DNA from: Planctomycetota bacterium
GTDB lineage: Bacteria > Planctomycetota > GCA-002687715
Length of the DNA stretch: 35,315 bases
Assembly: GCA_002683135.1 (NCBI GenBank)
Contig: NYSS01000049.1
Location: 8,036 to 43,350, forward strand
Direction of reading: 5' to 3'
Each line of letters opens with the position of its first letter. Within the stretch, counting starts at the first letter, position 1. Below the pieces are notes generated by a model. The model was given only the letters and a program-made list of their open reading frames with translations, did not search any database and was not told the DNA's origin. Positions 2,548 through 7,012 of this stretch are shown piece after piece. The position numbers and the translations under genes are program-made.

Positions 2548-5500
2548 CTATCCGTCGTGCTCTTCGTCGCCCCCGAGCTCGGCTTCGAGGCGCTCCGCCT
2601 CTTCCTGCAAGGTGATCCAGGACGGGTCCGGATGCTCCGGGTCGATCTCGACCGTGAGCGAGTGGGACTGGGTCTCTCCGTCGACGATCAGGCGCGCGCC
2701 GAAGGTCCCGGGGCGCACCCGCCGTCCACCGCCACGACCACCGCGACCACCGCGGCCACCGCGGCCACCGGCGTTGTTGTTGCTGGCGGGCGGCGCGCCG
2801 CGCAGGTCCCACGTCGCGTTGTGCAGGCCGGCGTCGGTGCTGACCTCGATCGTGCGGATCACCTTGGCGGTGCCATCGACGATTTCGATCTTGGCTGACG
2901 TGGCCTTCTTCTTGAGGTGGTAGGTGAGGGTCGCGCCGGTCGGCGGGTTCTCGCCGACGAAGCGGCGGTTGGTGCCGCCGGTGGAGGTCCCGCTCTTCCA
3001 GATGACCGCGCTGACGGGCTTGTAGAAGTGAACGCCCTTCGCCATGACCTTTTCGGTCATCTGGCGGACGGCGTTCACGTTGGTGATCCAGAGGCTGCGG
3101 CCGTGGGTCCCGGCGACGACTTCGCCGGACGGCACGTTGATGGCGAAAGCGTGGACGGCGACCGTCGGCAGGTTGCCGTTGAGGCGCGTCCAGTGCTTGC
3201 CGCGGTTGATGGAGACGTAAGCGGAGAACTCCGTGCCCAGATAGAGCACGTCCTCGTTCACCGGGTCTTCCGCGATGGTCCGCGTCGAGCCGGCGCCCTC
3301 CGGCAGCGAGCCGGTGAGGGAGTGCCAGGTGTCGCCTGCGTCGTTCGTCATCAGCGCGTAGGGCGCGTCATCGTCGCTGCGATGGCCGTCCAGGGTGACG
3401 TAGGCGCGCTTCGCGTCGTACTTGGACGCGACCAGTTCGCTGACCCAGCGGGGGCCCGGGACGATGGCGGCGATTGGAGCTCCGGCGGGCTTCTTGTCGG
3501 TGGCTCCGGCGGGCTTTTCGCCATCCTTGACGGCTACGGGCTTGCCGCTGACGGTCTCCCCGGCGTCAGCCGAGGGGATGCCGACCTTGAAGCAGTCGAT
3601 CCAGTTGGTGCCGCCGTCACGGGTGACCCAGAGCGCGCCGTCGTCGGTGCCCACGTAGACGATGTTCGCGTCCTTGGGTGACTCGGCGAGTGCGGTCGCC
3701 GCGCCGCGCTCGGTGTTGGTGATCTCCGGTGAGATGTGCTTCATGCCGACGCCACGGTTCAGTGACTTCATCACCACGCTGCCGGCCGTGTAGACGATCT
3801 TGTTGTTGTGATCGGAGATGAGGTACGGGGTCTCCCAGTTGAAGCGGACGCGCGGCGTGTTGGAGCCGCCGCTCCCGCGACCACCACGGGCGCGCAGGCT
3901 GCCGCGCGCGCCGGTCTCCAGGTCGCGCCAGCCCGGAGGTCCGTTCTGGCTCTGGCTGTAGACGATGTTCGGGTTCTCCGGATCGACGAGGCAGCGGAAT
4001 CCGTCACCGCCGCCGATGCGGATCCAGTCGTGGTTACGCTGCCCGGTTCCGGCAGTCCGGCTGGGCGCTCCCCAGCTGCCGTTGTCCTGCAGGCCGCCGA
4101 ACACCCAGTAGTTGCGCTCCTGGCTACAACCCACGTGATAGAACTGGCCGATAGCGGTGTGATTGAGGTGATCCCAGTTCTTGCAGGCATCGTAGGTCAC
4201 ATAGATGCCGCCGTCGCTGCCGTGAATGATGTGGTCGCCGTTGTTGGGGTTGATCCACTCGGCGTGGTGGTCCGAGTGGACGCCGCGCCCTGCGTTGCGC
4301 TCGAATTTCTCGCCCCCGTTGGTCGAGCGATACAGCGACGTCCCGAGGACCATGATGTTGTCGGCGTTGGTGGGGTCGACCCGGATCTGGCTGTAGTACA
4401 TGGGACGCGGGTTGAGCGTGTTGACACGCGTCCACGTTTCCCCGGCGTCCGTTGACTTGTAGACGCCGCCATACTCGTGTCCGTTCGGACCCTGCCGGTC
4501 TTGCATGTTCGCGGCCTGGCCGCCCAGCGTTCCGGTGAACGGCGAGCGCGCGCCCTTGGGCCACTTGCCGAGGGTGACCTCGACGACGACGTCCTTCTTG
4601 TCACGGACGACCTTGAACGGGACCGTGTCTCCGGCCTTGTGGTTGTGGCATTGCTTGTCGACGTCATTCGAGCTATGGACCCGATGATCGCCGATCGAGA
4701 GGACCACGTCGCCCACCTTCAGCCCGGATGTCTTGGCCGGCGTATCCTGGGGCTTCTGGCCGCTCCCCGAGCCGCCTCGGCCGCGACCACGGCCCTGAGA
4801 GGCGCCGAATCCGGAGACCTTCACGCCCGCGTCCACCGCCTCGACTCGGAGGCCCAGGAACGGCGCGTCTTCGGGTTGCTTCGCGATCATCTCGCTCTCG
4901 ACGATCGCCATGACCACGTTCGGGTCCTTGCGGTACCAGTCGATGCCGACCCGTCCGAAGTCGCACGTGGGCAGGCCCTTCGTCATGCGCGTCCATGTCT
5001 TGCCAGCGTTCGTCGTCTTCCAGATCCCGCTACCTGGTCCGTACTTCTTGGACGGATCGTTGGTGTCGAACCCGTCGCGCTCGCGCTCGTAGGTCGCCAT
5101 GAGCAGCGTGTCCGGGTCGGTCGGATGCATGTCGATGTCGATGACACCCGTCATGTCGTCGATGTAGTGGCTCTTGTTCCACGTCTTGCCGCCGTCGGTC
5201 GTCTTGTAGAGGCCGCGCTGCTCGTTGGGGCCGTAGAGGCGTCCGAGGGCGCCGACGTACACGATGTCCGGGTTCGTGGGGTGGATCACGATGCACCCGG
5301 TCTGAAAGCTCTGGCGGAGCCCCATGTTCGTCCAGGTCTTGCCGCCGTCGGTGGACTTGTAGACGCCGTCGCCGTAGGAGACCGAGTTACGAGGGTTGCC
5401 CTCGCCGGTGCCGACCCAGACGATGTCCTTGTTCGACTGGGAGACGCACACGCTGCCGACGGAGACCGTCGACTCATGGTCGAACTGGTGCTCGAAGGTG

Positions 5501-5727
5501 ATGCCGTTGTTGATCGTCTTGAGGAGGCCGCCGGATGCGGTCCCCGCCCACCAGATGCTGGGTTCGTTCTCGTAGACGGCAAGGCTGATGATCCGGCCAC
5601 CCATGGTGGACGGTCCGATGCTGCGCCAGTGCGTGTCGTCAGCCCACGACGTGGGAAGCTCCTGCGCAGTGGAGGTGGACGCGGCGAGCAAGACGAGGGT
5701 GACAAGGAGGATCGACGGGCGGGACAT
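2548..5727 (-). CDS. Secreted sortilin/VPS10-like BNR-repeat protein with an inserted PDZ domain
   Basis: This exported protein has 1059 aa. The ATG at 5727 is preceded by GGGAGAAG at good spacing and opens a signal peptide ending near AQ-22. The body is a beta-propeller with several BNR/Asp-box repeats: GVYKSTDGGKTW (about 121-132), GLYKTTDGGKTW (172-183), GIWKTTNAGKTW (234-245) and GVYKSTDAGETW (421-432). A PDZ-like module (about 288-388: GLRVEAV, then SGLKVGDVVLSIGDHRV) sits between propeller blades, and its front loop carries GRGRGRGGSGSG. The C-terminal part has a beta-sandwich (TWDLRGAPP) with an RGG-rich loop and ends in a short acidic helix. The family is common in planctomycetes and acidobacteria; its substrate is unknown and I assign no enzymatic activity. 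It is divergent from the gene at 5825. Confidence 0.8.
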   Translation of the reverse strand: MSRPSILLVTLVLLAASTSTAQELPTSWADDTHWRSIGPSTMGGRIISLAVYENEPSIWWAGTASGGLLKTINNGITFEHQFDHESTVSVGSVCVSQSNKDIVWVGTGEGNPRNSVSYGDGVYKSTDGGKTWTNMGLRQSFQTGCIVIHPTNPDIVYVGALGRLYGPNEQRGLYKTTDGGKTWNKSHYIDDMTGVIDIDMHPTDPDTLLMATYERERDGFDTNDPSKKYGPGSGIWKTTNAGKTWTRMTKGLPTCDFGRVGIDWYRKDPNVVMAIVESEMIAKQPEDAPFLGLRVEAVDAGVKVSGFGASQGRGRGRGGSGSGQKPQDTPAKTSGLKVGDVVLSIGDHRVHSSNDVDKQCHNHKAGDTVPFKVVRDKKDVVVEVTLGKWPKGARSPFTGTLGGQAANMQDRQGPNGHEYGGVYKSTDAGETWTRVNTLNPRPMYYSQIRVDPTNADNIMVLGTSLYRSTNGGEKFERNAGRGVHSDHHAEWINPNNGDHIIHGSDGGIYVTYDACKNWDHLNHTAIGQFYHVGCSQERNYWVFGGLQDNGSWGAPSRTAGTGQRNHDWIRIGGGDGFRCLVDPENPNIVYSQSQNGPPGWRDLETGARGSLRARGGRGSGGSNTPRVRFNWETPYLISDHNNKIVYTAGSVVMKSLNRGVGMKHISPEITNTERGAATALAESPKDANIVYVGTDDGALWVTRDGGTNWIDCFKVGIPSADAGETVSGKPVAVKDGEKPAGATDKKPAGAPIAAIVPGPRWVSELVASKYDAKRAYVTLDGHRSDDDAPYALMTNDAGDTWHSLTGSLPEGAGSTRTIAEDPVNEDVLYLGTEFSAYVSINRGKHWTRLNGNLPTVAVHAFAINVPSGEVVAGTHGRSLWITNVNAVRQMTEKVMAKGVHFYKPVSAVIWKSGTSTGGTNRRFVGENPPTGATLTYHLKKKATSAKIEIVDGTAKVIRTIEVSTDAGLHNATWDLRGAPPASNNNAGGRGGRGGRGGRGGGRRVRPGTFGARLIVDGETQSHSLTVEIDPEHPDPSWITLQEEAERLEAELGGDEEHDG

Positions 5728-5824
5728 GGTCTTCTCCCGAGGCTACGATGGGGACTAGGACAAAAGTGATGGACCATCCATACTACATCGGACCGACTGA
5801 AACTGCCGATTCGCGGAGCGCCGT
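5728..5824. promoter_or_regulatory. Divergent promoter region
   Basis: These 97 bases separate two genes read in opposite directions, so both promoters must lie here or in the flanking coding ends. A short inverted repeat, GATGG-A-CCATC, lies at 5769-5779 and could be an operator. I do not see convincing -35/-10 boxes. Ribosome-binding sequences are visible on both sides: GGGAG before the minus-strand gene and GGAG at about 5816-5819 before the plus-strand gene. Confidence 0.4.
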
Positions 5825-7012
5825 ATGAACGTTGTTGGGCTCCTCCTCCTCTCGCTGGCTGTTTCCTTGATCGTGGACCCGGTCGTGGGGCAGCAGGTGA
5901 CGCTCATCGAGAGCCCCGCGGGGACCTCCAGCGGGCAGCCCCACCTGGATCGGGGCGTGGACGGGATCGTCCGTATGTGCTGGGTCGAGACCGACGAGCG
6001 GTCGGCGCGCCTGCGCTTTTCGGCCTTCAGCCCCGAGGGGTGGTCTGCGCCGCGAACCATCGCCGAGGGAGACCGTTGGTTCGTGAACTGGGCGGACGTT
6101 CCTTCACTGGCTGCTGACGCGGACGGCAACCTCCTCGCGCACTGGCTCGAACGGCTCGGTGATGGATCGTATGCGTATGGGGTGCGGATGCGGATCTCCA
6201 CCGACGGGGGGACGACCTGGGGAGCTCCCTTCTGGATTCACGATGACAGGAGCGCCCAGGAGCACGGGTTCTGCAGCATCCTGCCGAAGGCGAAGGTGGG
6301 GCAGATCCAGGACATCACGCCCGGTTTCTGGGTGGTGTGGCTGGACGGTCGCGACATGCCGAAGACCGACGAGATGACGTTGCGGGCGCGCACCGTCGGC
6401 ATCGACGGCAAGTTGGGAAGAGAGGCCGTCCTCGACCCGCGCGTCTGTGAGTGTTGCCCCACCGCGATCGCCCGTGGTGGCGACGGTCTCCCGCTGATGA
6501 CCTACCGGGACCGCAGCGGTAAAGACGTCCGTGACATCGCGGTCGCCCGGCATGGGTTGTTCGGTTGGGGCAAGCCAGCGATCCTCCATGACGACCGCTG
6601 GACGCGGCCGGGCTGACCGGTGAATGGGCCCGCGCTGGACGCGCGGGGAAATCGCGTCGCGGCGGCTTGGTTCACGCGTGGTGGCGGGGCTCCCAAGGTC
6701 ATGTTTGCGGTGTCTTCCGACGGTGGTCAGTCGTTTGGTAAGGCGCGGCAATTGCCAGCCAAGGACCCGATCGGTCGCTGCGGTGTCGCCGTTCTGGCGG
6801 ACGGGTCGGTGGCCGTTTGCTGGCTCGACCTCGTGAACAACGTCGCCGAGCTGCGGGCATCGCTGGACGGTGAGAAGATCATCACGTGTGCGAAGACGTC
6901 CGCTGGCCGGGCGTCCGGTGTCCCGGAGATCGTCGCCGAGGGCAAAGGGGCGCTCATCGCGTGGCGTGATGTCTCCAAGCGCCGTGTCCTGACGGCGCGC
7001 GTGGTCTGGTGA
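5825..7012 (+). CDS. Secreted sialidase-fold BNR protein with one in-frame TGA (candidate Sec264, or a nonsense mutation)
   Basis: The frame starts at ATG 5825 (GGAG seven bases upstream) with a signal peptide ending near VVGQQ. It runs to TGA 6614-6616 (263 aa), continues in the same frame without another stop to 7012, and would give 395 residues. The part after the TGA (PVNGPALDARGNRVAAAWFT, then FAVSSDGGQSFGKA) is plainly the rest of the same fold, so the two halves are one gene. Asp-box motifs RISTDGGTTW and AVSSDGGQSF mark sialidase-like propeller blades. A cysteine cluster VCECCPT lies in the first half. As I recall the family, relatives read G-C-P-V-N-G-P where this gene reads G-TGA-P-V-N-G-P, so the stop replaces a conserved Cys. 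Either selenocysteine is inserted, or this is a one-base nonsense change (TGC or TGT to TGA) or sequencing error. Function beyond a secreted BNR protein is unknown. Confidence 0.7.
6614..6647 (+). other. In-frame TGA followed by a bSECIS-like hairpin
   Basis: TGA at 6614-6616 is followed by a perfect 7-bp stem, CCCGCGC (6629-6635) with GCGCGGG (6641-6647), closing a 5-nt loop TGGAC (6636-6640). The loop begins 19 nt after the TGA and has G as its second base. The bacterial SECIS consensus, as I recall it, asks for a loop 16-37 nt after UGA with a G among its first two bases, so the geometry fits. The stem is all G/C in a GC-rich gene, so chance occurrence is a real alternative. No Sec machinery gene lies in the window. 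Confidence 0.4.

Follow-up and report, generated by a model that had tools for sequence, protein, structure and literature searches.

A 2026 compilation lists 119 prokaryotic selenoprotein families and subfamilies in its Table 1, which also covers the families of Haft and colleagues; most characterized selenoproteins are thioredoxin-like, and the bSECIS element is modeled as a hairpin with a loop of 3–9 nt, a stem of 4–16 bp, a G in the first two loop positions, a distance of 16–37 nt from the UGA, and a minimum free energy of at most −7.5 kcal/mol (PMC13188914). The gene described here, found in a window of 35,315 nucleotides (the whole stretch of DNA that was analysed), resembles these systems in its exchange of selenocysteine (Sec) and Cys among relatives, its downstream bSECIS-type hairpin, the presence of SelA, SelB, SelD, and tRNA-Sec, and its further conserved Cys residues. 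It differs from them in its scaffold, a beta-propeller, as no sialidase, BNR, or propeller family appears among the 119 families of Table 1. Sialidases and BNR-repeat proteins (GH33; BNR_2) have the propeller fold in common with the window protein, which has a weak BNR_2 match, whereas the conserved centre of the window family consists of CxCC and [C/U]P together with D174, R228, and a Trp. A likeness of another kind concerns the methanethiol oxidase MtoX (SBP56), a Cu-dependent enzyme of the periplasm from a different family that is linked to mauG in many genomes and for which Cu binding through conserved His has been proposed (PMC5739008). The window gene is likewise followed by a MauG-like gene, although this is a functional analogy only, the SBP56 domain being absent among the Pfam hits of the window protein at E up to 1. 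Based on comparative sequence evidence, the in-frame TGA of the window gene almost certainly encodes Sec. The gene and its surroundings comprise the following features:

200–2488, + strand: CotH kinase-domain protein with a weak EF-hand match
2548–5727, − strand: large Sortilin/VPS10 and PDZ protein with BNR repeats, divergent, upstream of the selenoprotein gene
5825–7012, + strand: candidate selenoprotein gene, 395 aa with the TGA read through, predicted secreted beta-propeller
6446–6457, + strand: C-x-C-C motif (C208, C210, C211), presumed partner of Sec264, each Cys invariant in 124/124 aligned rows
6614–6616, + strand: in-frame TGA, proposed Sec codon, residue 264 in the motif G-U-P-V-N-G-P
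6629–6647, + strand: bSECIS-type hairpin CCCGCGC / loop UGGAC / GCGCGGG, 19 nt from UGA to loop
7132–8136, + strand: MauG/di-haem cytochrome c peroxidase-like protein with a signal peptide, after a 119-nt gap downstream of the selenoprotein gene

The first-pass annotation had described a single TGA splitting an otherwise intact 395-codon gene, with coding in the same frame on either side, and both the reading and the coordinates are confirmed. Codon 264 is the only internal TGA of the 395-residue reading, the rest of the gene is intact, and codon-position GC follows the same coding pattern before (0.66/0.51/0.84) and after (0.69/0.56/0.79) the TGA. A possible ribosome-binding site (GGAG, 5815–5818) precedes the gene, the product of which begins with a signal-peptide-like helix. 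The cysteine trio CECCPT already recognized in the first half corresponds to C208, C210, and C211. None of the other split ORFs in the window looked like a Sec candidate.

Relatives were collected from a genome contig scan (80 loci) and from 392 surveyed genomes belonging to the phylum of the window, 79 of which had a match; few further sequences came from searches at class level. Within the order, three genomes each carry a relative that is interrupted by a single internal TGA. When the relatives are aligned and TGA is read as a residue, column 264 contains Cys (TGC/TGT) in 107 of 124 rows and TGA in the remaining 17, and nothing else, in agreement with the first-pass annotation, which gave Cys for relatives at this very spot (GCPVNGP). 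One gene accounts for two of the TGA rows (L020 and L102), so that the 17 rows represent 16 distinct loci, the window and 15 further ones, and all the TGA forms seen belong to Planctomycetota. They spread over two subfamilies: the main family (GUPVNGP) holds 10 of the 16, and the other six belong to a remote subfamily (mostly UPMDAP) that shares only ~21–25% identity with the window protein; W-L-D-x-R, C-x-C-C, R, [C/U]-P, and W are invariant in both. The remote-subfamily loci with Sec at the same place (L128–L133) come from six Planctomycetota genomes. In a maximum-likelihood tree built without column 264, the distribution of Sec and Cys needs five changes, at least four of them forced by well-supported branches, and two sister sequences within one genus-level group carry different residues (Sec in L131, Cys in L139). 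To judge from these sequences, Sec and Cys have switched several times in Planctomycetota, at least four to five times according to the tree, which does not fix the direction. The Cys form L139 shares its genus-level group with L129 and L132 as well as L131.

The AlphaFold2 model of the window protein is a confident propeller (pLDDT 93.7, pTM 0.90). The best PDB folds retrieved by Foldseek are L-rhamnose-glucuronate lyase and sialidases (TM 0.5–0.6, ~10–16% identity), the matches with sialidases (E ~1e-9, TM ~0.5) indicating a sialidase-type propeller fold, and a viral structure library yielded generic propeller matches only. The initial label of a sialidase-fold protein consequently holds for the fold and not for the family: nothing points to sialidase activity or membership, and membership was rejected on the score against Pfam BNR_2 (PF13088), which at 27.0 bits lies below the cut-off of 31.4. 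In the model, C208–C211 follow strand 201–207, the last of one blade, and Sec264 lies between strand 252–255, the last of the next blade, and strand 270–274. CxCC and Sec264 would thereby occupy equivalent blade-to-blade loops of neighbouring blades and are expected on the same face, a proximity that we deduce from topology. The model of the remote subfamily (pLDDT 88.9) repeats this layout and places C193–C196 after strand 186–192 and Sec250 before strand 256–259. All four residues of the centre, C208, C210, C211, and C/U264, are invariant.

No single conserved operon was found around these genes. Their neighbours differ by lineage and therefore constrain the function only weakly. A MauG gene directly adjoins one family member only, the window gene. 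Downstream of the Cys forms of Bacteroidota/Rhodothermota lies a gene of the VKOR-DsbA (thioredoxin) fusion type, present at 10 clustered loci of which one representative was typed (L021, L024, L028, L029, L037, L039, L048, L050, L057, and L071). In the Acidobacteriota set, the 84 neighbouring ORFs include five E1-E2 ATPases, five HMBD, three YHS, and two HMA domains, and two outer-membrane efflux proteins; a P-type ATPase family occurs within 4 kb of the Cys form at six Acidobacteriota-like loci (L038, L044, L053, L059, L062, and L063), the typed member, L059, having an HMA domain. A molybdopterin oxidoreductase adjoins members of one Planctomycetota family. All these neighbour counts stand without background rates.

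The four invariant Cys/Sec residues and the varied neighbours together suggest an extracytoplasmic centre, either for thiol/selenol redox chemistry or for binding a soft metal. That the window protein is a selenoprotein and also bears a thiol/selenol centre of some kind is, taken jointly, highly probable. With regard to the role of this centre, we incline towards redox chemistry rather than metal binding. The VKOR-DsbA, MauG-like, and molybdopterin oxidoreductase genes among the neighbours speak for redox. The hairpin that follows the UGA would direct SelB and tRNA-Sec to insert Sec at residue 264 ([C/U]PVNGP). In the exported beta-propeller all four thiol/selenol groups should point towards one side, where residue 264 and the CxCC motif would most likely make and break a selenenylsulfide or disulfide as part of an extracytoplasmic redox centre.

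A soft-metal site is possible, if rather doubtful. The protein would still be a selenoprotein, but its three Cys and Sec would form a thiolate/selenolate site for Cu(I) or another soft metal, used for sequestration or for copper-dependent oxidation. The invariance of all four ligands would suit such a site, as would the E1-E2 ATPase, HMBD, YHS, HMA, and efflux genes near the Acidobacteriota Cys forms, the recurrence of the P-type ATPase in six loci, and the MauG-like gene after the window gene, which recalls the linkage of MtoX with mauG. However, no metal-related genes were noted next to the Sec forms, the neighbour genes come with no background rate, and thiol redox is the better match for the VKOR-DsbA neighbours. 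Keeping thiol/selenol redox as the favoured role of the window protein, we tentatively suggest for the family at large that it comprises widespread extracytoplasmic propeller enzymes with a Cys3-Sec/Cys4 cluster on one face, in which Sec and Cys are interchanged and which may carry out an undescribed soft-metal or organosulfur redox reaction.

Both readings of the centre assume that the TGA is a genuine Sec codon. A TGC is converted to TGA by a single-base change, and the assembly consists of 209 contigs with an estimated contamination of 5.2%, so a nonsense mutation or a sequencing or assembly error in an ordinary Cys gene has to be weighed; we regard it as extremely improbable. TGA occupies the same codon in the fifteen other loci, which as independent homologs contradict mutation or read error, and occurs in no other aligned column among 43,567 residues (124 rows, query residues 31–386). 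Every TGA is confined to one codon, a pattern that random error or decay would not produce. Conservation downstream is undiminished: the window protein shares 45.6% identity with the remaining Sec relatives upstream of the TGA and 42.1% downstream, compared with 43.1% and 37.8% on the two sides of codon 264 among Cys-Cys pairs. The half after the TGA is thus as conserved as in the Cys homologs and displays no decay.

The genome that harbours the window also has the machinery for Sec insertion, which likewise speaks against a mutated Cys gene. All four of its components are present: selA (523 bits) and selB (332 bits including a neighbouring match in frame), both above their family cut-offs, a tRNA-Sec gene (73.8 bits versus a gathering score of 47, with the anticodon tca according to ARAGORN), and a selD that is itself a Sec protein (...SACGGUAAKAD...), its ...CGGUAAK... 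matching the UxxK motif listed for SelD (PMC13188914). The latter gene is located as follows:

L001:373–1458 (G000:C184): selD, selenoprotein (ACGGUAAK), downstream of selA and just upstream of tRNA-Sec

Standard ORF calling places the start of this selD too late. Contig C184 carries selA, selD, and tRNA-Sec in one group, and its local GC content is the same as in the window (0.67 each). Both tRNA-Sec and a selA above the cut-off are present in 14 of the 16 TGA genomes, the one with the window included. The other two are drafts: in G005, which is 77% complete, neither selA nor tRNA-Sec was found, and G279 has a selA fragment at a contig end and no tRNA-Sec was found in it. Within Planctomycetota the machinery is uninformative as a discriminator between Sec and Cys, as nearly all the genomes tested have selA whichever form of the gene they carry; outside this phylum, selA is lacking in 27 of 50 sampled Cys-carrying genomes.

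The hairpin downstream of the TGA is exactly as first described, with a perfect 7-bp stem (6629–6635/6641–6647) and a TGGAC loop (6636–6640) that starts 19 nt after the TGA. With this 5-nt UGGAC loop, stem, and spacing, and a folding energy of −21.2 kcal/mol over 47 nt, it falls within the limits of the bSECIS model. Taken alone it is marginal, both against synonymous-codon shuffles (p = 0.053) and against dinucleotide shuffles (z = −1.25), and we dropped the window hairpin by itself as proof of Sec. Across the family, we scored for each gene the best uninterrupted stem with a loop starting 14–26 nt after the codon. The 16 TGA genes reach a median stem score of 18, compared with 11 for 105 Cys genes (p = 1.2e-7, kinship ignored), and the difference persists when the TGA genes are compared with Cys genes of GC over 0.6 (p = 4e-7, related sequences treated as independent); mean GC is alike in the two gene sets (0.67 and 0.68). 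Synonymous-codon shuffles gave a Fisher combined p = 8e-6, again with related sequences treated as independent. A G within the first two nucleotides of the loop is found in 12 of the 16 hairpins and absent in four. A general reassignment or readthrough of UGA without SelB or SECIS, for instance by a suppressor tRNA, is hardly credible: a suppressor inserting Cys at this Cys-equivalent residue would also preserve function, but the same gene terminates in TGA (7010–7012), the ground on which general reassignment was rejected, the genome has a canonical Sec system with a Sec-containing SelD, and hairpins are enriched in the TGA genes over the Cys genes.

The family appears to be absent from published inventories of selenoproteins. 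No model of NCBIfam release 20.0 (June 2026) matches the window protein; the PDIAV-lipoprotein model of that collection, which does not match it either, recognizes 4 of 50 family members. The deep-Sep paper (PMC12013277) contains no such family, and none is named in the selenoprotein passages of a Planctomycetes genome paper (PMC4807772). An earlier automatic prediction is possible among the unlisted candidates of a 2026 groundwater study cited in PMC13188914.

The window gene and its relatives would add to the known selenoproteins a family built on a beta-propeller, a fold not found among the listed prokaryotic ones, and they reveal in a ‘sialidase-like’ protein a four-residue thiol/selenol centre that is absolutely conserved in several phyla. 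Standard gene calling cuts such genes in two, and Planctomycetota annotations need correcting in this respect. As far as sequence comparison can tell, the use of Sec argues strongly for a catalytic or metal-binding residue 264, and it would therefore offer a direct way into the function of this large unannotated family.
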